Below are positions 1-17,438 of a DNA stretch of 20,981 bases, in pieces. The notes under the pieces were generated by a model. The model saw only the letters and a list, made by a program, of their open reading frames with translations. It made no database searches and was not told the DNA's origin. The stretch is from positions 1-20,981 of the IMG/VR virus record IMGVR_UViG_3300049827_000119; one strand, 5' to 3'. Within the stretch, counting starts at the first letter, position 1, and each line of letters begins with the position of its first letter. The DNA is from a virus. A program made the translations under genes and the position numbers.

Positions 1-475
1 TCGTGACAACTGCCTGCACTGCCAGGTCAGAGCGAATGTTTGTCTGGTAGCTGGTCAGGTTCATGCTTCTGTTGTTCGCGTCAAACATCCAGTTAGAGGC
101 TTTCACTTGTACATCCCGCGATTTATAAATCCCCGGCGTGACGCTGATACCGTCCATTTCAATACGACCGTAAAACAGGTCGCGGTATATTCCATCATAG
201 ACACAGTAGACCATGACGGGCAAGCCGGACGTGAAGCCAGTGAGAGCCGTAGCCGTGCCGGGAGAATAATACCCGCGTGTGCGTGCGCTGTTCGCTTCGG
301 AGTTGTCAAGCGCGAAGGTCAGCGTAGCCGCACCACCTACACGGCTCAACGGGTCGTATGCCATAATGCCCATTCCTGATATTCTAGGGTGAGGGTTCTG
401 CTTGACATCCGCGCTAATGTCAATCCAGACGTCGTTAATTTTTATCTGAAAGACAATACTCGTAAATTGTTCCAT
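1..475 (-). CDS. Tail-tip / distal tail-like protein, partial (runs off the window edge)
   Basis: This frame opens with ATG at 475-473, sharing bases with the TAA of the tape-measure gene (TAATG), and stays open for about 158 codons to position 1, so the C-terminus is missing. The product begins MEQFTSIVFQIKINDVWIDI. It contains a segment reading LTFALDNSE and, later, GLPVMVYCVYDGIYRDLFYGR. This pattern, a beta-rich stretch followed by G-x-V-x-V with an aromatic and F-x-G-R, is common in phage tail proteins of the distal-tail/hub type. Position right after the tape measure, where siphophages place the distal tail and hub genes, supports that. The exact family is inferred from pattern and position only. 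No strong ribosome site precedes it, so translation is probably coupled to the tape-measure gene. Confidence 0.8.
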   Translation of the reverse strand, partial: MEQFTSIVFQIKINDVWIDISADVKQNPHPRISGMGIMAYDPLSRVGGAATLTFALDNSEANSARTRGYYSPGTATALTGFTSGLPVMVYCVYDGIYRDLFYGRIEMDGISVTPGIYKSRDVQVKASNWMFDANNRSMNLTSYQTNIRSDLAVQAVVT

Positions 476-3090
476 TACGACAACCTGCTCACTTGTTCAG
501 ACACCGCGCTACCAATCGCGCGCGGGTTCTCTGACATCATTACGCCGATTAGCACATCCATTTTGTCAGCCATGACTTGATTTGACTTTTCGATTCGTTG
601 TGCATAACTCTCGTTCATTTGTGCCATTGCCAGCGTGATATTCTGCGTGGTACTCACTGCGCTGGTAATTTGTGAAATGGCAGAGGATATAGCCGCGCCT
701 TCTTGACTGTTGGATGAGAAGAAAGCCGATCTAACATCTTTGCCATGTACCGTTGTTGTGGGTATCCCGCCGGGGGTCGTTGTTGGACCGCCGCCGCCTA
801 AATTGACCGTAGTATCTTCGCTCGGATTAGCATAAGACTTTACGCCGGTCACTTTGCCTGCAGCTATCATTTGCTCTGATTCGGCGTTTGAATACACCTT
901 GCCATTCTTGATTAATTCAGACACACCGGGAACCCATTTACCGCCCGGTCTATCACCGACCATGTTCCAGCCGCTTGACAACTGCCCGCCGTCCGCTAAA
1001 CTTTTGGCATTGTGTACCAATACACCGCCCGCAAAGTAGTTATGACAAACATGGTCAACGTGTAAGTTATATGTTAGTTCGTTTTTGACCAACTCACGTA
1101 TGGAACTCACGCGGGCAAAAGAGCCGTCCTGATTCATCAGCAAGTCACCGACTTGGAACAGTCCCGCCGCTGTCCACTCAAAGCCATTCCAGAGTAAATG
1201 CTCTTCGGTGACTTTGAGGTAGCCGTTGAATAACAACAACCGCCCGCCATCGCGCTTCGGATGCTCAAACACTTCCACTACATTTGTCTTAACTTGTTGC
1301 TTCTTTTCAAGGTCATACGATAGGACAACATCACCGACCTTCACATCTCGAATCGGTTTGCTTTTGTTGTCCGCCATCGTTACCAATGTGTCACCAGTGA
1401 AACAAGAATTATCAGCGGGCTTATTAGCGGGCTTATTGGTCGTGGTGGTTGTGCCGCCTGCATCGTCGCCAGTTGCGCCGCCGTGTTGACCGCCCGAACC
1501 GCCGGTCATGTTGGTGAGTTCGGTTTGTAAGTCACTAAGTGCCTGCATGTCAATTTTCAAGGCTACGTCAATTGTGTAACCCTTCGCCATCAGCTTAAGC
1601 ACTCTGTCCAGTTGATTAGCGGACGGTATCATCTTCCCATTAATGGCGTCATTTAGTTTTGTTGCTTCGGTTTGAAAGGTATTAGCCATTTCAACAACAG
1701 ACGTGTCTACCATGCCCATAGATTCGGCGACCTTTAACATGTTCTCGTATTCGCCTTCTTGCCATCCATCAGAGGCGGCTTTTTGTACCATCAAATCGAA
1801 AACTATTTTTTTTGTAGCCTTTTCGTGTTCGGCAACAAGTTCCGTTATTTGTCCTTTTACGCCCTCAATGTCTTTTCCTAAATCTTTGTAACCCTGACTA
1901 TTTGGTTTCAGTCCCTCTTGCTTCGCCTGTAACTCTGCCAGCTTGTCATTAAGTGCGGTGTTGGATTCGGTGAATTTATCTGTCTCTTGCTGGACGGATT
2001 GAATCACGCTCCATTGATTAGCGTAGGCATCGGATGTGGCTTTGAGTTGTTCTTCGGTCTTTTGTTCTTCGGCGTTTTTGGCGGTTGTACTTTGTGTGTA
2101 AAACTTCGTCATCTCGCCCGCCTTGACCATCATTCTGCCAAGACGTTCGGCGGTGTCTGAATAATCAGCGGACGCTTTGTTACCTTCGTAGGTGTCTTTA
2201 ATTAAATCTCGTCCTATTTTTCCGAAGTTGTGAACTGCGGCAGATGCATTGTCCGCCTCTTCTGCGGCGGCTTGCATGTTGGCTATCCATTCACGGAATG
2301 AGTCAAATGTATAAGCCAGCCCGCGATTGAAATCTTTTATCCAGCCTTCATTGCTTTTACCGATTTGTTCGACCAGATTGCCCCATGAGTTCTTGAGATT
2401 TTCACCACCTAGTGAGGCGTCGTTCATTGCCTTTGCCGCGCCGCCGAATTCAGTAGACAATTCGGCAAGCACGAGGTTCTGATACCCCACCAAGTCGTTA
2501 GTTTCTTTGAAGTTCTCAATTTGTGCGATTTGTTCGGCAGTGAACGACACGCCCGCACGCTTGAGCGCGGCATAGCCTGAGAAGTCATTCATCGCCTTAC
2601 CGACTTGAATCACAGAGCCTTGTAAATCACCGCCCATTACAGCGGACATATCGAGTGCCGCCTGCATCGTTGGAGCAAAGGCTTCGTCTTTTACTTTTGT
2701 AAACGTCAATAACAGGGCTTCAGCGTTGGTAATAAGTTCATCGTCAACGCCTGAAACAACGGATAAAGCGTCCGCCATTTTGTTTAAGCCCTCTGACGTT
2801 TGTCCCGCCGCGCCGCCGGTACTCTTTAACACTGCTTCCAGTTTAGCGGTCATCTTGGAAGATTCTTCTGCGGCTTTAGCGGTTGCGTAAATGGCTTTGC
2901 CAAATGCAATTGCGCCAGCGGTAACGCCGCCCATAGCGGACAACAAGCCAGCGTTTGCCCCCATGAAGCCGGTCATCTTATCTTTTGCGCCTTCCAAAGC
3001 AGGCGACAGGCTCTTAAATTCTTGAGCGACCTTCTTAACAGCGGGTGAACTTTGGTCAATCGTGCGTAATGTTATGGTTACATCAGGCAT
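475..3090 (-). CDS. Tail tape-measure protein with an internal intein-like (Hint) domain
   Basis: An 871-residue protein, the longest in the window, placed after tail tube and chaperone genes as tape measures are in siphophages. Tape measures set tail length and are packed inside the tube. Residues 1-40 are polar. Residues 41-75 form a Gly/Ala-rich hydrophobic stretch (GFMGANAGLLSAMGGVTAGA) that could insert in a membrane. Residues 75-500 are mostly helical and Ala/Lys/Glu-rich, with coiled-coil-like parts around 340-430. A flexible linker (530-562, rich in Gly, Thr and Asn-Lys-Pro-Ala) leads into a Hint domain at 563-694. The tail then resumes with ADGGQLSSGWNMVGDRPGG (699-717), which resembles the ADGG...VGE-x-GPE motif usual near tape-measure C-termini. 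Without the Hint domain the protein would be 739 residues. The start ATG overlaps the end of the preceding frame by 8 nt. Confidence 0.92.
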   Translation of the reverse strand: MPDVTITLRTIDQSSPAVKKVAQEFKSLSPALEGAKDKMTGFMGANAGLLSAMGGVTAGAIAFGKAIYATAKAAEESSKMTAKLEAVLKSTGGAAGQTSEGLNKMADALSVVSGVDDELITNAEALLLTFTKVKDEAFAPTMQAALDMSAVMGGDLQGSVIQVGKAMNDFSGYAALKRAGVSFTAEQIAQIENFKETNDLVGYQNLVLAELSTEFGGAAKAMNDASLGGENLKNSWGNLVEQIGKSNEGWIKDFNRGLAYTFDSFREWIANMQAAAEEADNASAAVHNFGKIGRDLIKDTYEGNKASADYSDTAERLGRMMVKAGEMTKFYTQSTTAKNAEEQKTEEQLKATSDAYANQWSVIQSVQQETDKFTESNTALNDKLAELQAKQEGLKPNSQGYKDLGKDIEGVKGQITELVAEHEKATKKIVFDLMVQKAASDGWQEGEYENMLKVAESMGMVDTSVVEMANTFQTEATKLNDAINGKMIPSANQLDRVLKLMAKGYTIDVALKIDMQALSDLQTELTNMTGGSGGQHGGATGDDAGGTTTTTNKPANKPADNSCFTGDTLVTMADNKSKPIRDVKVGDVVLSYDLEKKQQVKTNVVEVFEHPKRDGGRLLLFNGYLKVTEEHLLWNGFEWTAAGLFQVGDLLMNQDGSFARVSSIRELVKNELTYNLHVDHVCHNYFAGGVLVHNAKSLADGGQLSSGWNMVGDRPGGKWVPGVSELIKNGKVYSNAESEQMIAAGKVTGVKSYANPSEDTTVNLGGGGPTTTPGGIPTTTVHGKDVRSAFFSSNSQEGAAISSAISQITSAVSTTQNITLAMAQMNESYAQRIEKSNQVMADKMDVLIGVMMSENPRAIGSAVSEQVSRLS
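1009..1404 (-). other. Hint / bacterial intein-like domain inside the tape measure (residues 563-694)
   Basis: This in-frame segment of 132 residues carries the intein-fold landmarks. It starts with Cys563 in SCFTGDTLVTM (block A) and continues with DVKVGDVVLSYD. The block B T-x-x-H is KVTEEHLLW (Thr628, His631). It closes with a HNYFAGGVLVHN segment ending His693-Asn694. No homing-endonuclease domain fits in this length, so it is a mini-Hint. The next residue is Ala695, not the Cys, Ser or Thr that normal inteins need for trans-esterification. That matches A-type bacterial intein-like (BIL) domains, which have His-Asn at the end but a variable next residue and have been reported to cleave and sometimes splice. 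Whether this one splices, cleaves or is inert cannot be read from sequence. Confidence 0.88.
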
Positions 3091-3418
3091 TAAATAAAAT
3101 CCTGTTATCCATCAAATAGCGGAGTATCATTCTCTCGCTATCCGTGAGGGTGTGAATCTGTGTACCTTTCAGGCTCTTGATTCGTTGCACGGCGTTGTAA
3201 ACATTCGTTAGTGCGTTCATCCTGTGCATGAGTTGGTAATCCTGGTCATACAATCCACCGGCATCGGGCAAGGTTTTCCAGCGTTCACAATTCCATGACA
3301 TCTTCAACTCATGAGGCGGCGGGGCGTTATCCGTTATACACTCCACCACCGCCTCTATTAGTTTTTTGGGATGTCCTCTAATTGATTCATGAATTTGAGA
3401 ACTTCCAAGCCTGCCCAA
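3083..3418 (-). CDS. Downstream frame of the tail assembly chaperone, made as a -1 frameshift fusion (gpG-T type)
   Basis: This frame lies between the tail-tube genes and the tape measure and is in the -1 frame relative to the gene starting at 3645. Its only upstream start would be a TTG at 3418, buried in the previous gene, and no ribosome site fits. It is best read as the second half of a fusion. After the slippery AAAAAAC at 3367-3361 the ribosome would continue with Leu-Ile-Glu-Ala-Val-Val and add 92 residues, giving a product of about 187 residues spanning 3645-3083. This is the layout of lambda gpG/gpGT and similar pairs in many siphophages, where the long form loads the tape measure and recruits tube subunits. 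The added part has a cluster of Trp/Cys (MSWNCERWKTLPD) and a helical C-terminus. Its TGA overlaps the tape-measure start. Confidence 0.82.
   Translation of the reverse strand: MGRLGSSQIHESIRGHPKKLIEAVVECITDNAPPPHELKMSWNCERWKTLPDAGGLYDQDYQLMHRMNALTNVYNAVQRIKSLKGTQIHTLTDSERMILRYLMDNRILFNA
3311..3370 (-). promoter_or_regulatory. Programmed -1 ribosomal frameshift signal
   Basis: Read on the minus strand, the 0 frame runs ATC CCA AAA AAC TAA. The heptamer A AAA AAC (3367-3361) is in the correct X XXY YYZ phase, and the overlapping C CCA AAA (3370-3364) also fits. A 0-frame TAA follows at once (3360-3358). After a 5-nt spacer (TAATA) comes GAGGCGGTGG (3355-3346), which pairs with CCGCCGCCTC (3322-3313) in a 10-bp stem containing one U-G pair and a 23-nt loop. 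Slippery site, short spacer and stable stem are all the parts of a classical -1 signal, and the -1 frame stays open for 92 more codons. Confidence 0.85.
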
Positions 3419-3645
3419 ATAATGATTTGCGCTTGTGTTGGGTCGGTCATATCGTCAAGGCTGATTTTGTAATCAGGGATAACTTTACTCTCCCATTTAC
3501 TGATTAGCACTTTCGCGCCTTCCCAATAACGAAGCATTGCATCGTTTGGATTAACACCACTTGCCGCGCCAAAGAACATGAGTTGCTGGCGTACGGTGGG
3601 TCGGTCTGGAATTTCAAATGTACAATTGTCATTCTTGAATTGCAT
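3358..3645 (-). CDS. Tail assembly chaperone, short form (gpG-like)
   Basis: A 95-residue protein from ATG 3645. A GTG directly before it (3648) could add one residue. It ends ...LEVLKFMNQLEDIPKN at a TAA that sits right after the slippery heptamer. In siphophages the gene after the tail tube usually encodes a small chaperone that binds the tape measure, with a minority product extended by -1 frameshifting. Length, position and the frameshift signal all agree. The N-terminal part looks like a beta hairpin with aromatic residues (MQFKNDNCTFEI), followed by helices. No specific family motif was recognised, so the call rests on position and on the frameshift architecture. The ribosome site is weak (AGAAAG about 10 nt upstream). 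Confidence 0.82.
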   Translation of the reverse strand: MQFKNDNCTFEIPDRPTVRQQLMFFGAASGVNPNDAMLRYWEGAKVLISKWESKVIPDYKISLDDMTDPTQAQIIIWAGLEVLKFMNQLEDIPKN

Positions 3646-3664
3646 CACAAAACTACTTTCTGCC

Positions 3665-4093
3665 TTATGCGGCGAATACGGATGTCTTGACCATCACGCC
3701 ATCAGCAGTTGCGGACAGTGAGAAGGTTTGTAAACTATTGTTCGACCCGCTGAACTCAACGGCGGTAACGACAAACTCACCGCGCAGAATTAAGCCTGTG
3801 GTTGAGTTGGTCATATTGGCGGCGCGTTGGTAAGTTCTTTGTGCGGTCGTGCGGTTGCCGAGATATGGGGCGAAGAGTCCGTTAGTCGTGGTGTTCAAAA
3901 TACCACTAAGCGACAACGTAGTTCCTGACATGCCGCTGATATAGGATTTTTCTTCATCAGCCATCGCTGAATCTTCAATCAAATCGCCAGAACCGGACAA
4001 CGTTTCACTTGTCACCCACGCGGTAATCTCGGTGGCTGTGCCAGTGGAGTTATCCCACTTGATTTTCTCGTTCTTGTAAATTAGGTTTGCCAT
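3665..4093 (-). CDS. Tail tube-like protein, copy 2 of a tandem pair
   Basis: A 142-residue protein beginning MANLIYKNEKIKWDN. It is about 75% identical by eye to the preceding gene (4103-4513). The shared core contains TSETLSGS, DLIEDSAMADEEKSYI, LGNRTT and SGSNNSLQTFS. The main length difference is a short insert (around ANMTNS) near residue 92. The size, Thr/Ser/Gly-rich beta pattern, and place just before chaperones and tape measure fit a major tail (tube) protein. That role is inferred from context. The start has a ribosome site in AAGGTGATGAC. Only 9 nt separate it from the first copy. Which copy builds the tube, or whether both do, cannot be decided from sequence. Confidence 0.82.
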   Translation of the reverse strand: MANLIYKNEKIKWDNSTGTATEITAWVTSETLSGSGDLIEDSAMADEEKSYISGMSGTTLSLSGILNTTTNGLFAPYLGNRTTAQRTYQRAANMTNSTTGLILRGEFVVTAVEFSGSNNSLQTFSLSATADGVMVKTSVFAA

Positions 4094-4102
4094 GTCATCA
4101 CC

Positions 4103-4513
4103 TTATAGGGCTACGGATGTTTTAATCATCACGCCATCAAATGTGCCACTGAACGAGAAGGTTTGCAGGCTGTTGTTTGAGCCTGAATACTCAATAGCAG
4201 TTGGCACAACTTCGCCGCGCAATACTAAGCCAGTAGTTGCGGCGCGTTGGTAGGTCTTGGTCGCGGTTGTGCGATTACCCAGCAACGGCGCGAGAATGGC
4301 GTCGGTGGTGGTGTTGACAATTCCACTGAGGGAAAGGGTCGCGCCTGCCATGCCTGCGATGTATGACTTCTCTTCATCTGCCATTGCGCTATCTTCGATT
4401 AGATCTTGCGACCCGCTCAAAGTCTCACTGGTGATATAGGCGGTAACATCCGTCAGTGTACCGGCGGCGTTGTCCAGTTTCAGCGTTTCGTTTTTGTAAA
4501 TTAGGTTTGCCAT
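4103..4513 (-). CDS. Tail tube-like protein, copy 1 of a tandem pair
   Basis: A 136-residue protein beginning MANLIYKNETLKLDN, closely related to the next gene downstream. The ATG shares bases with the preceding stop (TAATG) and is preceded by GGAGCAATA. The predicted structure is beta-rich with many Thr, Ser and Gly, as in tail-tube subunits that stack as hexameric rings. The most conserved blocks between the two copies (DLIEDSAMADEEKSYI and SGSNNSLQTFS) probably form the ring interface or core. Differences cluster at surface-like positions and in the loop near residue 92. The family assignment is from size, copy similarity and gene order and not from a recognised motif. Confidence 0.83.
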   Translation of the reverse strand: MANLIYKNETLKLDNAAGTLTDVTAYITSETLSGSQDLIEDSAMADEEKSYIAGMAGATLSLSGIVNTTTDAILAPLLGNRTTATKTYQRAATTGLVLRGEVVPTAIEYSGSNNSLQTFSFSGTFDGVMIKTSVAL

Positions 4514-7423: not shown

Positions 7424-7673
7424 GTTTCTTGTCCTTTGTGTCTAGGTATTTTGCCCGACGTTCTGTGGCGTCATCTATAAAGTTTTGTATCACCGGCGGG
7501 CGGGCGTCCGCTTCATGGGGTGGTAATCCATTCCAATTCACACGCGGCGGTTGTGGTACACGGTGCATCTTCGTTGTACATTTCACACAATAACGCGGAT
7601 GGTCAAGCGTAGAGATGCTATGTTCAATTTCGATCTCGTGCCCGCGCTCACATTTATAGTTATAAATTGGCAT
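7413..7673 (-). CDS. FmdB-like zinc-ribbon protein
   Basis: An 86-residue protein starting MPIYNYKCERGHEIEIEHSI, very close to the MPxYxYxC...GH opening of FmdB-type zinc ribbons, with a second knuckle YCVKC (Cys29, Cys32). The first knuckle has only Cys8 followed by Arg-Gly-His12 and lacks the second Cys of the usual CxxCG. His12 or another residue may complete the zinc site. The C-terminal half (PPRVNWNGLPPHEADARPPV) is proline-rich and then helical and basic. Such ribbons occur as small phage genes near capsid genes, with no settled role. The start overlaps the end of the glycosyltransferase-methyltransferase gene by 14 nt, placing it in the same cassette. Confidence 0.75.
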   Translation of the reverse strand: MPIYNYKCERGHEIEIEHSISTLDHPRYCVKCTTKMHRVPQPPRVNWNGLPPHEADARPPVIQNFIDDATERRAKYLDTKDKKHAK

Positions 7674-9111
7674 GTTTCACCATGACCATTCCAATCAATC
7701 TACCGTCACTCGCGTGCGTGCGTGCGGGTAGGTGGGTAATTTGATATAGCGGGTCTGCCTGTAATTCGTCAATAAACTTGTTACAACCCATCCCGGCAGG
7801 CTTGCCTTCGTGGTAATAGTCATCAAATACAATTGTCTTGCCGCATCGCAACGCCTCAACTCCATCATTCTCAATTGTCTTTTCAGAGTGACCGCCATCC
7901 ACAAAGATAAAATCAGCGGAGCGCATATCTTCGATGGTCTCGCGGGTGTCGCCTGCTATCAGTTCGATATTGGCACCGGTCGCCTCAAGTCTGCGCTGCA
8001 CCACGTCAATCGGCTGTCCGTATTTCGACAATTCGCGGGTGAACTGTTCGCCTGTCATGCTCTCAAATAAATCGAAACCTTGATATTCGATCTCGTGCAT
8101 CGGATAGTATTTAGCGGCAACCTGAATCATCCTGATTGCGTTGTTGCCGTTCCACGTACCGACCTCACAAATTGACTGCGGCTTTTCTTCATTGATAATG
8201 TCAAGTAGTTGTGCGTATCTATCCATCCCCCTGTCTGGATAGACTTCCGAAGTCCCGCCCAATAATCTACCAATAAGCAGGGCGTACTCGTTCACATAAT
8301 CAAGGCTTGACCATGCGCGGGCAAGTTGGTGATAAAAGACGTTATGCTCGAACATCGCATTTAATTTACCCATGAGTTCGGCGGGCGTCTCGTATAAATC
8401 ATCTTTGTCCAGTAAGTCAGCGGCGTAGCCGAACTTTGGGGACAATACTTTGCAACCGCTTGACATTGCCTCTAGCAAGGGTAAGGGACCGCCCTCCACG
8501 TAGCCGGTGGCAACAAATACATCTGCCTGCTGATAAAACGCTCGTATCAAATCGGGGCGGTCGGCGTGGGTGTATTTCACAGACACGCCCAATGAGGTGA
8601 GGATGGCGGCGATTTCTTCCCACTGTTGACCCAGCAGAACAAACTCGTACATATCAAGGTCATACTTCCACGCCAAATCAAGTAAAAGGCTCTCGCGCTT
8701 GCGCCCGTTGGGTTGGGGGTAGCCTACGATTAGCACCATGCGCTTTTTGAAGGTGAACGAATCAGCAGGGTTATAAACAACCCATATCTTCTCAGGGTTT
8801 ACACCCAAGCCTAGCAACTCATTGCGACCTGTAAATGTCATAGTGGTGATTATGTCTGCCCGTTCACACGCCTGAAACAACTCCGCCTGTTGTCCAGGAT
8901 TGCAGTGGGTATAGGCTATGATGTGCTTGCCTTCGCCTAACTCCAAATCATCACCGACTAAAGTATGGAAAGGAAAATGCACGTTAAGGTCTGCGGACGG
9001 GTCAATGGCTTGTGTCTCTGTGACTTCGTACAACTTGTCAAGTTGTTTTAGCGGTTGGCTCATACGTGCCATCGCTACTGAGTTGTAAGGGTTGACGATG
9101 TTTACTCTCAT
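7660..9111 (-). CDS. Fused GT-B glycosyltransferase and SAM-dependent methyltransferase
   Basis: A 483-residue two-domain enzyme. Residues 1-285 resemble GT-B (GT1/GT4-type) glycosyltransferases. They include a VYNPAD hinge region (112-117), a strand LIVGYPQPNGRKRE, and the donor-binding motif EGGPLPLLEAMSSG (206-219), whose first Glu normally contacts the sugar nucleotide. Residues 295-480 form a class I methyltransferase of the Methyltransf_24 type. SAM motif I is ICEVGTWNG (314-322), an acidic strand end is YQGFDLFE (343-350), and DFIFVDGGHS (400-409) and IVFDDYYHEG follow. It probably transfers a sugar and methylates it or its carrier. The ATG overlaps the stop of the upstream glycosyltransferase (ATGA), so the two probably work in sequence. 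The acceptor, virion protein or host surface, is unknown. Confidence 0.87.
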   Translation of the reverse strand: MRVNIVNPYNSVAMARMSQPLKQLDKLYEVTETQAIDPSADLNVHFPFHTLVGDDLELGEGKHIIAYTHCNPGQQAELFQACERADIITTMTFTGRNELLGLGVNPEKIWVVYNPADSFTFKKRMVLIVGYPQPNGRKRESLLLDLAWKYDLDMYEFVLLGQQWEEIAAILTSLGVSVKYTHADRPDLIRAFYQQADVFVATGYVEGGPLPLLEAMSSGCKVLSPKFGYAADLLDKDDLYETPAELMGKLNAMFEHNVFYHQLARAWSSLDYVNEYALLIGRLLGGTSEVYPDRGMDRYAQLLDIINEEKPQSICEVGTWNGNNAIRMIQVAAKYYPMHEIEYQGFDLFESMTGEQFTRELSKYGQPIDVVQRRLEATGANIELIAGDTRETIEDMRSADFIFVDGGHSEKTIENDGVEALRCGKTIVFDDYYHEGKPAGMGCNKFIDELQADPLYQITHLPARTHASDGRLIGMVMVKHANL

Positions 9112-9893
9112 GCGGTCGCCTTTCGTAGCTTCTCAATTTCTTTACGATTCTCTTGGTTGATATACAGAGACAGGTCGCGGATTGCGGATGCTGGTTGTCC
9201 TAGCCAATCGTCTATCGTTATGCCGTAATCGGTCATGTGTTGTGGACAAACGCCCGTGTCGCCTAGCAGGGGAAAGCCTGCCAAATTCGCAAAGAACGGA
9301 AAGCGGATGTCACTGCCGACGGTATCCTTGACACCGCGTAAAGGCTTGAGTTGTTCGCGCCCTGCCAAGACTTCTTGCAGGTCGTATGGGTAAACATCCA
9401 TATCATCCTCAAGCACTTCCGGCTCGCCTTTCAATAACGGCTTCATCGCGGTTATTACGTCACGGTGTACCAGAATACACCCCCAGCCACTCGCGCCGAT
9501 GGGATAAGTTTTATTCTTTTCCAGTAGCGCGGTCATGGGTCGCATCGGCATGACACCAGGCTCGTTGCGTTCAAACCACACGGGGCAAACAGGCTGAATA
9601 GTGCGCCGCATATAGAAGCCTGAAACAAACGGGGCTTTGTGCGCCCGTAATCGTTCCAATGTGTTCTGCGGGAAAATCATGTCCGAGTCCAAAAACAAAA
9701 TAAACGGATGCTTTGTGTTCTCGTACCAGTTGTTAAGGTGCATCTGCCGCGCCTCATAGCCTTTAGTGGCTCGGATGTAATGCGGGCGGGCGTCTTTTTC
9801 TCTGAGTGTTATGCCTTCGATGCTATCGCGGCAAATCCCGTTCTCTTGAACGGAACCCACGACTGCTACATAAACAGAACCTTTGTACTCCAC
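9108..9893 (-). CDS. GT-A (GT2-like) glycosyltransferase
   Basis: Start chosen at GTG 9893, which has AGAAAGGATTCAAGC before it. A longer frame back to 9980 would run through the hairpin at 9909-9944 and add residues unlike the family. The resulting 261-residue protein begins with a strand (SVYVAVVGSV) followed by a GT-A nucleotide-sugar core. The metal-binding DxD is FLDSDM (Asp69, Asp71). Further on, FVSGFYMRR and GASGWGCILVHRDV match the acceptor-side loops of GT2-like phage enzymes. A late aromatic/His segment (CPQHMTDYG) fits a metal-ligand region. There is no membrane segment, so it is cytoplasmic. It is coupled to the fused GT-B/methyltransferase. Likely substrates are nucleotide sugars from the host. 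Modification of a virion protein is a reasonable inference because of the gene's place inside the structural operon. Confidence 0.85.
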   Translation of the reverse strand: MEYKGSVYVAVVGSVQENGICRDSIEGITLREKDARPHYIRATKGYEARQMHLNNWYENTKHPFILFLDSDMIFPQNTLERLRAHKAPFVSGFYMRRTIQPVCPVWFERNEPGVMPMRPMTALLEKNKTYPIGASGWGCILVHRDVITAMKPLLKGEPEVLEDDMDVYPYDLQEVLAGREQLKPLRGVKDTVGSDIRFPFFANLAGFPLLGDTGVCPQHMTDYGITIDDWLGQPASAIRDLSLYINQENRKEIEKLRKATA

Positions 9894-9908
9894 GCTTGAA
9901 TCCTTTCT

Positions 9909-9944
9909 AAAGACGGGGCGGGCAAGCGTTACCCGCCCCGCTTT
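9909..9944 (-). terminator. GC-rich hairpin, possible attenuator or terminator after the capsid genes
   Basis: CGGGGCGGG (9914-9922) and CCCGCCCCG (9932-9940) form a perfect 9-bp stem with a 9-nt loop, extended by AAAG/CTTT across a one-base bulge. It lies between the stop of the 71-residue protein (9950) and the glycosyltransferase GTG (9893). On the minus strand the run after the stem is only TCTTT, short for an intrinsic terminator. It may reduce read-through from the highly expressed capsid genes or stabilise their mRNA. Confidence 0.5.
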
Positions 9945-9949
9945 GGTGA

Positions 9950-10165
9950 TTAGGTTGTGGTATTGCCGGTGCTGTTGCAACTTACATACAACGTGCCGAT
10001 ACGAATACCCGTTGAATTGGCGTAAATCGTTTTGCCTGACACGCCACTAAAAGCGACGCGCCCGCTAAAGATTACCGCCGTGCTGTTGAAGGTGAGGTTG
10101 TGACTGCCAACGTCAATACGCTGTTTGGCAAACAAGCCACGCCCTGAGGATTGAGGATGCGCCAT
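9950..10165 (-). CDS. Small beta-rich protein next to the major capsid gene
   Basis: A 71-residue protein beginning MAHPQSSGRGLFAKQRIDVG. Its ribosome site, GAGGAGGCTCATA, is one of the strongest in the window, which suggests high expression like the capsid genes. The sequence alternates strands (NLTFNSTAVIFSGRVAFSGV, IRIGTLYVSCNSTGN) and is rich in Ser, Thr, Asn and Gly, without charge clusters. It may be a head decoration or a small fibre-like subunit. A terminator-like hairpin follows it. No family recognised. Confidence 0.72.
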   Translation of the reverse strand: MAHPQSSGRGLFAKQRIDVGSHNLTFNSTAVIFSGRVAFSGVSGKTIYANSTGIRIGTLYVSCNSTGNTTT

Positions 10166-12760: not shown

Positions 12761-13215
12761 TATTTCTTCCCTTCCAAGAATTGCGCCAGCAACTCACCAC
12801 ACTGTTGCCATATCTTCTCGATCTTATCGGCGGCGCGTTCTGCTATCGTTCTAATCGTCCACCATCTGGACGAGTGCATACCTGCTTGTGTGCCTTCGCC
12901 AATGACTAGCGGGGCATAGTCCAAGTTCGTACCGAACACGCCCTCAACGTTACCACCGCCCAATGAGCGCACCTTATATACTGACGGACTCCCCTCTGCC
13001 CCGCCTTGCATCCCGCTACCCAATGACCGCCCAAGCGTGCCAGTTCTGCGGTACGTTGAGCCACTATCTTGTTGGGGGTAGGGCGGGACTTTTTCCCACA
13101 ACGCATTGAGTGACGCGCTCATGCTTGTTGCGGTGACTTTTATCAATTCAACAGGATACGCGGTCATACGTTGCAGTAGTTCGTTCAGTCCTTTGATTTC
13201 GATGATTTCAGGCAT
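12760..13215 (-). CDS. Virion morphogenesis protein (Mu gpG / HK97 gp10-like)
   Basis: A 151-residue protein beginning MPEIIEIKGLNELLQRMTAY. It has the layout of gp10/gpG-type head-tail proteins: an N-terminal I-x-G-L-x-E-L-x-x-R segment, a long helix, a middle part reading YRRTGTLGRSLGSG (the usual R-TG-x-L-x-x-S), then VFGTNLDYAPLVIGEGTQAG, the typical G-T-x-x-x-YA-x-x-x-x-x-GT, and a C-terminal helix (IAERAADKIEKIWQQCGEL). These proteins help complete the neck or tail. Position between the gpF-like and gpI-like genes matches Mu. Its ATG overlaps the HNH gene's stop, and AGGAG precedes it by 8 nt inside that gene, so the inserted HNH gene now supplies the ribosome site. Confidence 0.83.
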   Translation of the reverse strand: MPEIIEIKGLNELLQRMTAYPVELIKVTATSMSASLNALWEKVPPYPQQDSGSTYRRTGTLGRSLGSGMQGGAEGSPSVYKVRSLGGGNVEGVFGTNLDYAPLVIGEGTQAGMHSSRWWTIRTIAERAADKIEKIWQQCGELLAQFLEGKK

Positions 13216-13658
13216 TATGAAAACTCCTGTAAGTAGTTAATGGCACTTTGTAATACATCAGGTTTTTCTTGAGCGTTTCCAAGCAGGTGATTACATCTAG
13301 TACACAATAAACCTCTTACTGCGCCGGTGGTGTGATTATGGTCTACGGACAATCTCTTTCCGAAAGGGTCTGGTTCTTTGCAGATATAGCATTTATTATC
13401 TTGTGCGATTTCTTTTCTTTCATACTCTACTTTGTCTATTCCGTATAATTTCTTAATCATTGCATAAAAACAATGACCGTGTTTTTTTTGGTATTTCTTA
13501 TCTAGCTTTCTTTTACACTCTTTACAATAAACAGTTACGCTCGATTTATTTGATTTGTCTTTTCCAAAATAATCTACACTTTTATAAACATTACACGCCG
13601 GACATTTCTTGTTTCCATCTTTCCAAACCTCATTATTTCTTCGACCTGCTCTTCCCAT
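13215..13658 (-). CDS. HNH / endonuclease VII-type homing-like nuclease
   Basis: Start chosen at ATG 13658, one nt after the upstream stop and preceded by GGGATTATAGT. A longer frame to 13694 would overlap the head gene. The 147-residue product has four zinc knuckle pairs: CPAC (19-22), CKEC (45-48), CYIC (90-93) and CTRC (119-122). The catalytic signature LSVDHNHTTGAVRGLLCTRCN places it in the recombination endonuclease VII/HNH group, with Asp106-His107 and His109 the likely metal/catalytic residues. The gene is visibly richer in A and T and in Lys codons than its neighbours, and it splits a gpF-gpG pair that is adjacent in Mu. Both signs suggest a free-standing mobile endonuclease acquired from elsewhere. 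Confidence 0.88.
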   Translation of the reverse strand: MGRAGRRNNEVWKDGNKKCPACNVYKSVDYFGKDKSNKSSVTVYCKECKRKLDKKYQKKHGHCFYAMIKKLYGIDKVEYERKEIAQDNKCYICKEPDPFGKRLSVDHNHTTGAVRGLLCTRCNHLLGNAQEKPDVLQSAINYLQEFS

Positions 13659-13659
13659 A

Positions 13660-14265
13660 CTATAATCCCAACGCCTTTCTTTGAGCTTCCTCAACTAAGT
13701 CCAAGTCTACAATCGGTTTTGTAAAACAACGGCAGCCCACGTGACTGCTGTTTGGCGGGTATGCGTCCACATCTTCAACACCAAAGTGTTCACCTTCACG
13801 CTCTGAGCAGATAGGGCATACCAGCTCATCACTAGCAGTCATCCACTCAACCGTAGTGATAAAGCCTGTGCTTTCCCACGCCGCCATGTTGCCCATGCTA
13901 AAGGCGCGGGTGACTTCGGTCGCCGCTATTCGTGCGGCACGTGCCTCACCAAATATACCCGCCATCGTTACCTCTAGCACGTCCAACGACTGCCCGCTCT
14001 GCATCCATTCGACCATTGCGGCTTGTACCTGCTTGCGGGTATTGTCTGTAATGTCCTTGATTTCGCCATAGCGATAGTCACGGGCAAATCTTACAGCGGC
14101 ATCGTTGAATGAGTTTGGATTGACTAGCGGTTGGATGTTGAGCGGTAACGCTTCCGTTCCGCCGTCCATGCCTAACGCTAGACCGGCAAGGAATAGCGGT
14201 AGCATCTCTTCATAGAGTGCCTGCTCTTCTTCGTCCCAAAACTTAGAATCAAACGGGGTCGGCAT
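13660..14265 (-). CDS. Head morphogenesis protein (Mu gpF / SPP1 gp7-like)
   Basis: A 201-residue protein whose C-terminal half has the conserved Mu F pattern: ARIAATEVTRAFSMGNMAAW (111-130), then WMTASDELVCPICSEREGE with Cys150-x2-Cys153, and PPNSSHVGCRC with His175, Cys178 and Cys180, a likely metal site. This family is a minor head component, often bound to the portal and sometimes injected with DNA. At 201 residues it is short, keeping the core and only a brief N-terminal region. Its ATG overlaps the portal stop (TAATG). The HNH gene begins one base after its TAG. Confidence 0.88.
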   Translation of the reverse strand: MPTPFDSKFWDEEEQALYEEMLPLFLAGLALGMDGGTEALPLNIQPLVNPNSFNDAAVRFARDYRYGEIKDITDNTRKQVQAAMVEWMQSGQSLDVLEVTMAGIFGEARAARIAATEVTRAFSMGNMAAWESTGFITTVEWMTASDELVCPICSEREGEHFGVEDVDAYPPNSSHVGCRCFTKPIVDLDLVEEAQRKALGL

Positions 14266-15787: not shown

Positions 15788-17074
15788 CTAATATTTGGAC
15801 GCCCAGCCCGTCTCTACGGGTTGCCATTTGGATGCGGTGCGCTTGCTCTTGACCATCTCGCCCGCGCCAATCATATCTACCTCATGTGCATATCTGCCAG
15901 CGGCGATAAGATGGTCATTTGTTCCGCTAGGCTTAAGTATCGCATTTCCACCCGCATCTTCCTGCCAGTGGGCGGTACTAATTTCCATCTTCGTATTAAC
16001 GCAGTTCTTATCTATAACAATTTCCTGCTGTTGCAACCACTGATACCCAAACAACACGGAATCCTTGCCCTTCGCCGCACCCACCGCGCTAATGCCGTAG
16101 GTCGTTAGTTCTGCAATTGACTTCGGTTCTGCGCTATCACAAACTACATACCGATTGCCGATCTTGCGCTTGACTTCGGCGGCAAGCAAGTCATTCGTCA
16201 AGCCTTTTTGATAGAGTTCGTCATAGACATAAATCCGCTTATTTGCCTTGTCGTAATGTGCGACCCATAAAGCGGACGGGTCAACGCTAAAACCGAAATC
16301 AAGCCCGAAGCGATGGTTAACAAACTGGTCACGCATCCCGCTCAAATCTTCCACGCGCCAATTTGTAAAGATGACGTGTCCCAATATTCCCCAATTGCCA
16401 AGCGTGTACACGTTATACCGGTACTTGTCCTTCTCGCTCTCAAGATCTTTTTGGTCTTGCGATGTCAGGAATTTATTATCCTTGTACGTGGTCTTGAGTA
16501 TGCTCAAGTCGTCCGTTCTGTATTCTGTCTGACTGTCAGACCATGCCACTGACTTAAAAAATTCCTCATATATCCAGTGACTTTGCAGTATCGGGTTGAA
16601 TGAGAGTATCATTCTTTTTCGGGTATTCTCATCGCCGCCGCGTTGCCGTTTGTATAAATTCATTACATCATTCTTTTCAGTCTCCGTTGCCTCTTCAATC
16701 CAAATGTCGGTAATAACGCCAGTCGGAGGCACAATTGACTTTAGTTTCTCTACATCATCCAAGCCAGCAAAATAAGCAATACAACCATTCTTTTTATATG
16801 TGATGGTCGCATCGTCTTTATTGACTTTGAATCGACTAGATATTCCTAATTCATCTATCACTCGTTTTACCTGCATAAATACTGACGATCTAATGGTACG
16901 CGCTACCTGCCTGCATATTAAATAATTTCTGCCGCCCGTCATTAAATCAACTATAACCCGTTGCGATAACGCCCACGATTTACCAGACCCGCTCCCGCCG
17001 AATATAATTTGTGTCCGTGCGTAATCTTCCAAGAGGGGGAGGTAAGCGTCATTGATTATTAGGTTCTGTTGCAT
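15788..17074 (-). CDS. terL: Terminase large subunit (packaging ATPase and nuclease)
   Basis: A 428-residue protein from ATG 17074, with AAAGG six nt upstream. A GTG at 17077 could add one residue. Walker A is GGSGSGKS (26-33) and Walker B with its catalytic Glu is ITDIWIEEATE (121-131). SFNP near 158-161 fits the coupling motif. The C-terminal nuclease domain has FGLDFGFSVDPSALW with Asp259, followed by a CDSAEPKSIAEL segment whose Asp is a second metal ligand. This is the layout of PBSX/Terminase_3-type enzymes, which pump DNA through the portal and cut concatemers. The gene overlaps TerS by 26 nt. Near-normal length and intact motifs indicate an active enzyme. Confidence 0.95.
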   Translation of the reverse strand: MQQNLIINDAYLPLLEDYARTQIIFGGSGSGKSWALSQRVIVDLMTGGRNYLICRQVARTIRSSVFMQVKRVIDELGISSRFKVNKDDATITYKKNGCIAYFAGLDDVEKLKSIVPPTGVITDIWIEEATETEKNDVMNLYKRQRGGDENTRKRMILSFNPILQSHWIYEEFFKSVAWSDSQTEYRTDDLSILKTTYKDNKFLTSQDQKDLESEKDKYRYNVYTLGNWGILGHVIFTNWRVEDLSGMRDQFVNHRFGLDFGFSVDPSALWVAHYDKANKRIYVYDELYQKGLTNDLLAAEVKRKIGNRYVVCDSAEPKSIAELTTYGISAVGAAKGKDSVLFGYQWLQQQEIVIDKNCVNTKMEISTAHWQEDAGGNAILKPSGTNDHLIAAGRYAHEVDMIGAGEMVKSKRTASKWQPVETGWASKY

Positions 17075-17438
17075 CACTCGCCTTTCGTATGTTGATAGTC
17101 AGGCTTCCGTCACTGTTCTGTAAATCAAGCGTATCCTTTACCTTGCCCTCCGCCCGTTCCATCAGTTCTTTCCATAGTCCAGACGTAGGCTCAAACATCA
17201 ACGCGCTAAACACGCGGGCGGTCACTAAGTATTTCATTTGCACATCGGCGGGCAACTCGGCAAGCATCCTGCCTAGGTCGTTATCTTTGCCGATGAACGC
17301 GATAATATCCGCTGGGTACATATCACCAACGGATTTGATTATCGCCGCCCAACTTTCGCCGTCCTTCGGTCTGCCGGTCGGGTTGGGTGACTTACCCCCT
17401 TTCTTCCATGCTGGGTTACCGCGCTTTTTGATTGTCAT
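17049..17438 (-). CDS. terS: Terminase small subunit-like protein
   Basis: A 129-residue protein just before and overlapping TerL. The N-terminus KRGNPAWKKGGKSPNPTGRP carries the basic G-x-S-x-NP-x-GRP motif frequent in phage small terminase-like and DUF5681 proteins, and probably contacts DNA. The middle is helical (WAAIIKSVGDMYPADIIAFI, MKYLVTARVFSALMF), and a C-terminal LWKELMERAEGKVKDTLDLQ segment is often seen in TerS proteins that end with a short beta tail. It would recognise the packaging site and hand DNA to TerL. No strong ribosome site is adjacent, the nearest AGGAG being 18 nt upstream. Position makes the role likely. The subtype is uncertain. Confidence 0.82.
   Translation of the reverse strand: MTIKKRGNPAWKKGGKSPNPTGRPKDGESWAAIIKSVGDMYPADIIAFIGKDNDLGRMLAELPADVQMKYLVTARVFSALMFEPTSGLWKELMERAEGKVKDTLDLQNSDGSLTINIRKASDATEPNNQ

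Follow-up and report, generated by a model that had tools for sequence, protein, structure and literature searches.

An intein-like Hint domain beside the tip module of phage tape measure proteins, a candidate for self-processing

Bacterial intein-like (BIL) domains of type A end in His-Asn and have no nucleophile at the +1 position; they mainly cleave and can also splice (PMC4031507). The proteins in which BILs have been described are non-conserved bacterial ones, where the domains lie in hypervariable regions (PMC7765530). In T5 and lambda, tail morphogenesis includes a cleavage of the tape measure protein (TMP), pb2 and H respectively (PMC10038345, PMC3224144); lambda H is cut only after U has completed the tube (PMC3224144). 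This maturation separates a C-terminal piece from the rod, and no Hint is involved in it.

Here we describe a Hint (intein-like) domain within the TMP of an uncultivated virus. The stretch of DNA analysed, called the window below, is the whole IMG/VR virus record IMGVR_UViG_3300049827_000119, 20,981 bases long. The Hint domain of its TMP resembles type A BILs (2lwy; BUBL1 BIL2, 6y75 and 6tmm) in fold, in size and in having no +1 nucleophile, and it has the terminal His-Asn in common with the bacterial BIL from C. thermocellum (2lwy). Unlike the BILs, however, it lies inside a phage TMP and recurs there at one position, next to a conserved motif. We found no report of a Hint in a TMP among open-access papers.

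The tape measure gene and its Hint domain

An earlier reading made from the sequence alone, here the sequence-only reading, had called the 871-residue ORF of the window a TMP (Table 1), and this identity is well founded. The protein matches Pfam TMP_2 (E = 1.3e-7) and PHROG 27166, 'tail length tape measure' (6.5e-26). Immediately upstream lie two overlapping frames, the usual arrangement of tail chaperones, which are joined by a canonical -1 slippery sequence so that the frameshift product extends into the second frame; the PHROG search gave no match for either frame. Major tail protein genes also stand upstream. The ORF thus carries the marks by which a phage TMP is recognised, namely a TMP profile, with frameshifted chaperones and a tail tube gene upstream.

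Within this ORF, Cys563, T-E-E-H at 628-631, His693-Asn694 and the following Ala695 lie, to the base, where the sequence-only reading had placed them. The Hint profile search that it had called for matched the Hint families at about 1e-8. With residues 541-713 of the TMP as query, Pfam returned Intein_splicing (E = 1.1e-8), Hint (1.1e-8) and PT-HINT (1.3e-8); the latter two exceed their curated cut-offs and Intein_splicing falls just below (35.5 vs 35.8 bits). The Hint match is far beyond chance. An AlphaFold2 model built from 30 Hint sequences has the full Hint fold (mean pLDDT 90.7), and its best PDB match is BUBL1 BIL2 of T. thermophila (6y75; Foldseek E = 1.8e-12), with a VIA Z of 21.8 and 1.6 A over 138 residues. 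For the BIL domain of C. thermocellum (2lwy) the values are Z 19.9 and 1.4 A over 130 residues, and mini-inteins match the model at Z similar to that of the BIL domains. When profiles of solved structures were ranked, BIL2 entries came first (7.3e-26), 8w20, an 'intein C-terminal splicing domain-containing protein', second, and the C. thermocellum BIL third (2.8e-17), above true inteins (7e-12 and weaker). Searches of Pfam, of solved-structure sequences and of folds concur on the identity of the domain. The likeness to type A BILs proposed by the sequence-only reading holds up as well: the domain combines the Hint fold, Cys563, T628 and H631, and His693-Asn694 with Ala695 at +1, and BILs come first in the profile and fold rankings.

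Table 1. Features of the window and of the other Hint-bearing TMPs (coordinates in bases of the window, or in residues where stated)
Source	Feature	Position	Strand	Basis or remark
Window	TMP with internal Hint, 871 aa	475..3090	-	ORF; Pfam TMP_2, PHROG tape measure
Window	Tail assembly chaperone pair, two overlapping frames	3083..3648	-	Slippery AAAAAAC at 3361-3367 (read 3367-3361)
Window	Hint (intein-like) domain, residues 563-694, 132 aa, without homing endonuclease	1009..1404	-	Pfam, solved-structure profiles, fold
Window	Cys563, N-terminal nucleophile, block A	1402..1404	-	Same residue in 8/8 Hint-plus-motif copies
Window	T-E-E-H, residues 628-631, block B TxxH	1198..1209	-	T and H same in 8/8 copies
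Window	His693-Asn694, C-terminal cleavage dipeptide, block G	1009..1014	-	Same in 8/8 copies
Window	Ala695, +1 position, not a nucleophile	1006..1008	-	Sequence
Window	Flexible linker before Hint, Gly/Thr/Pro/Asn-rich, residues 529-562	1405..1506	-	Sequence; poorly conserved vs L047
Window	Tip module, residues 695-745, ADGG...MVGD...VPGVSELIKNG	856..1008	-	61% identity to L047; counterpart in Hint-less TMPs
Window	Rest of TMP C-terminus, residues 746-871 and stop	475..855	-	Sequence
L047	TMP, 831 aa	Hint at residues 520-651		+1 Ala
L049	TMP, 693 aa	Hint at residues 484-615		+1 Val
L168	TMP, 1223 aa	Hint at residues 1000-1130		+1 Ala
L173	TMP, 1136 aa	Hint at residues 901-1042		+1 Leu
L199	TMP, 826 aa	Hint at residues 482-613		+1 Thr
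L201	TMP, 1620 aa	Hint at residues 1373-1504		+1 Ile

Two other identities were considered. The window Hint passes the Pfam cut-off for the PT-HINT of polymorphic toxins and, like it, lies upstream of a C-terminal piece, but the stretch that follows resembles TMP C-termini and not a toxin domain. An assembly artefact is ruled out by the independent contig L047, which shows the same architecture.

Several other genes of the window, all on the minus strand, deserve mention. Adjacent, similar genes at 3665-4093 and 4103-4513 resemble major tail protein genes and are tandem copies by sequence, the second being the one with a PHROG match. Inside the structural gene block, 7660-9980 contains a pair of glycosyltransferase-like genes, of which one also has a fused methyltransferase-like part. 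In the head module, an HNH-endonuclease-like gene (13215-13694) is 46% identical to a copy in contig L036, which otherwise shares only the terminase with the window. The large terminase (15788-17077) is 73-78% identical to those of contigs L004-L010, with which the window has hardly another gene in common, and has apparently been exchanged.

Recurrence beside the tip motif

When viral contigs were scanned with patterns and with a profile, six further TMPs with an internal, endonuclease-free Hint emerged, making seven with the window, from four TMP families and all from uncultivated contigs (Table 1). Every Hint copy has 128-142 residues, leaving no room for a homing endonuclease. L168, L173 and L201 were identified as TMPs by PHROG or Pfam, and L199 has a weak PHROG match (1.2e-4). 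L047 and L049 gave no TMP profile match; they count as TMPs because L047 is homologous to that of the window (5e-16) and L049, whose gene lies directly before a Dit gene, to L047 (7e-38). The parts preceding the Hint are related to one another in the window, L047, L049 and L199; those of L168, L173 and L201 match neither these four nor each other at E 0.01. A 611-residue protein encoded near a head-decoration gene (L255, 4281-6116, plus strand) carries the same Hint plus RGGEVDGPTPAILGEKGPE cassette as well. It does not have the appearance of a TMP and is not counted as one, and the eight Hint-plus-motif copies referred to here are the seven TMPs and L255.

The sequence-only reading had located the Hint between a flexible linker and a conserved C-terminal Gly-Gly motif, in agreement with the sequence and with the comparison to L047. 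The Hint is followed directly by AKSLADGG in the window, IYKKHEGG in L201 and LKSIDFAAGG in L173. The Gly-Gly motif (AxGG in five TMPs, HEGG in L201) comes 4-6 residues after the Hint in all but one of the seven and leads into a conserved C-terminal stretch; the exception is L199, where it lies further downstream. Isolated phages carry this C-terminal stretch without a Hint. One is Pseudanabaena phage Pam4; its TMP and the window's are related at the N-terminus. In addition, the Hint-less C-termini of Streptomyces phage phiRKBJ001 (LAAGGVTTGPTMAMIGEGRE) and Campylobacter phage CJIE4-3 (FADGGIVTRPTNALIGENG) match the piece after the Hint in L173 (FAAGGIVTRPTRALIGEGRE). Because isolated phages have the stretch without the Hint, the Hint and its linker look like an insertion at the border of rod and tip module.

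For the comparison with close Hint-less TMPs, contigs sharing the terminase gave no TMP match and no Hint-less TMP of the same genus, and we found no Hint-less sister TMPs of high identity. Direct scans of viral contigs with TMP and Hint peptides gave no match. The combined Hint-plus-Gly-Gly pattern found enzyme inteins and no TMP in species genomes, while about 800 sampled genomes from two phyla contained mostly PT-HINTs of polymorphic toxins, one gpJ-like Hint and no TMP. Isolated phages yielded only enzyme inteins, toxin Hints or C-terminal fibre Hints and no TMP-Hint, and the BFVD fold search gave no entry named tape measure among the 50 matches listed.

These surveys also brought up Hints in other virion proteins. 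Six viral contigs (L101, L169, L170, L171, L174 and L176) and one bacterial genome (L309) encode gpJ-like tail-tip proteins in which a Hint lies near the N-terminus. Gly runs flank this Hint, Gly also occupies its +1 position, and the viral six group in a single clade (99/98). Virion or fibre-like proteins of L088, L103, L121, L175, L218 and L229 end in a Hint (...VHN plus 1-10 residues), as do annotated tail or intein-domain proteins of Alcaligenes phage Afa-NA1 (L286) and phage NCTB (L288).

Constraint, the +1 residue and the Hint tree

All eight Hint-plus-motif copies share Cys1, TxxH and HN...VHN. The search patterns had no part in Cys1 and TxxH but did in part fix HN...VHN, except that in L199, L201 and L255 they left the last HN and the +1 residue free. 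The catalytic cysteine is the sole cysteine of three of the seven TMPs (L047, L049 and L201) and of L255; the window TMP has two cysteines. Identity between the window TMP and that of L047 is 20% over residues 1-270, 29% over 271-480 and 17% over 481-562, then 64% in the Hint and 61% over 695-745, and 27% and 25% downstream. Within the Hint, this pair gives a pN of 0.27 and a pS, already saturated, of 0.87. Such values indicate strong purifying selection on the Hint; the constraint as a whole does not give the picture expected of a decaying intein.

The missing +1 nucleophile stood as far as Ala695 of the window and six of the seven TMPs are concerned, although it is not absolute, since L199 has Thr. 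In a scan without constraint on this residue, five of six TMP-Hints had no Cys, Ser or Thr at +1, compared with 9 of 53 other internal Hints (Fisher p = 0.002, over rows that are not all independent by descent). Those nine include gpJ-like tip proteins, with Gly, and further proteins whose sequences suggest a structural role.

In the Hint tree, the window, L047, L049, L199 and L201 form a supported clade (96/88) despite the different family of the L201 TMP, and L168 pairs with L255 (100/98). A common clade, and with it one origin, for the eight Hint-plus-motif cassettes together was neither demonstrated nor rejected (p-AU 0.20). The cassette has either moved between TMP types or arisen more than once.

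Probable self-cleavage and competing explanations

On balance, we favour the reading in which the insert, a self-processing domain resembling A-type BILs, parts the rod from the tail-tip end, and to judge from these comparisons the TMP probably cuts itself during tail assembly. Among the options listed by the sequence-only reading, separation of the C-terminal piece is the leading one. A self-processing Hint would have become fixed in the TMP directly ahead of the module by which TMP C-termini are recognised. Cys563 would form a thioester with residue 562, which would be hydrolysed or otherwise resolved because no Cys, Ser or Thr stands at +1, and Asn694 would cyclise and free the peptide starting at Ala695. 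The predicted products are a tail-tip piece of residues 695-871 (18 kDa), which may act at the tail tip, and a rod piece of residues 1-562 (about 60 kDa) or 1-694 (about 75 kDa). In T5 the C-terminal piece of the TMP stays in the cup. The outcome would match the proteolytic maturation of T5 pb2 and lambda H, with the difference that the TMP would carry the cutting device itself, in cis. Counting against self-cleavage are the uncultivated origin of every copy, the share of the search patterns in HN...VHN, the Thr at +1 in L199, the more distant Gly-Gly motif of the same protein and the number of TMPs, only seven. A change in tail length, for which the sequence-only reading had argued, is no necessary consequence: because cleavage of lambda H follows completion of the tube by U (PMC3224144) and the Hint sits near the C-terminal (tip) end, its removal or cleavage need not alter tail length.

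The main rival is splicing, which we consider unlikely but serious. Once Asn694 has cyclised, the freed amine of Ala695 would attack the Cys563 thioester, giving a seamless TMP of 739 residues and an excised domain of 132; the domain would then be an unusual endonuclease-less intein following the route proposed for type A BILs, which can indeed splice without a +1 nucleophile, although cleavage products dominate (PMC4031507). The catalytic residues of both junctions are intact and the +1 residue of L199 is Thr; residue conservation by itself does not distinguish cleavage from splicing. What speaks for cleavage is that the +1 nucleophile, kept by most internal phage Hints, is missing in five of six TMP-Hints, and that the insertion lies in a variable linker and not at a conserved site needing restoration. 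The contrast is with inteins proper: those of phage enzymes and of L219 share the Hint fold and blocks A, B, F and G with the window Hint but have Cys, Ser or Thr at +1 and sit in conserved active sites. In L219 (2178-5981, plus strand), a TMP has its NlpC/P60 active site split between DC and SG by a Hint with Ser at +1, by its sequence a classical intein in the same kind of protein. The window Hint does not fit a class 1 intein: Ala695 stands at +1, and the domain sits in a linker with 17% identity (481-562) just before the tip motif, not at a conserved site.

It is less probable still that the domain has lost its chemistry and now serves the TMP as a folded spacer or for binding. Its position at the border of rod and tip, where a folded spacer could matter, suits this idea, but a spacer would not need the invariant TxxH and HN, nor a Cys1 that never varies in proteins with otherwise few or no cysteines.

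A thioester without an internal acceptor is open to external nucleophiles, and Hints lacking the +1 nucleophile occur in tip-like and fibre-like proteins too. The amine of another tail protein might thus resolve the Cys563 thioester, joining the rod covalently to a partner and releasing the C-terminal piece; nothing in the sequence points to such a partner, we know of no partner or cross-link for a TMP Hint, and we regard this route as very improbable. Most disfavoured of all is a selfish or neutral intein remnant, harmless in the linker: intein relatives are common in phages and the linker position would fit, but no copy, at 128-142 residues, has a homing endonuclease, and the Hint is under strong purifying selection and more conserved than its host protein. 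The neutral passenger allowed for by the sequence-only reading is likewise unlikely, because the arrangement recurs next to the same motif in unrelated TMPs, purifying selection acts and every catalytic residue is kept.

A wider and more tentative idea, which we hold to be possible though doubtful, is that tailed phages have repeatedly built non-splicing Hints into virion proteins as in-cis maturation devices for the ordered cutting, and perhaps covalent joining, of tail parts. Such proteins might include tape measures with the Hint before the tip module, gpJ-like tip proteins with it near the N-terminus and fibre-like proteins with it at the C-terminus. With a TMP that carries its own processing domain, two point mutations would make the timing and purpose of maturation cleavage testable. 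If self-processing is true, BIL-type domains would gain a defined structural job in a virus, and the non-splicing Hints of virion proteins would be set apart from the selfish inteins of phage enzymes.
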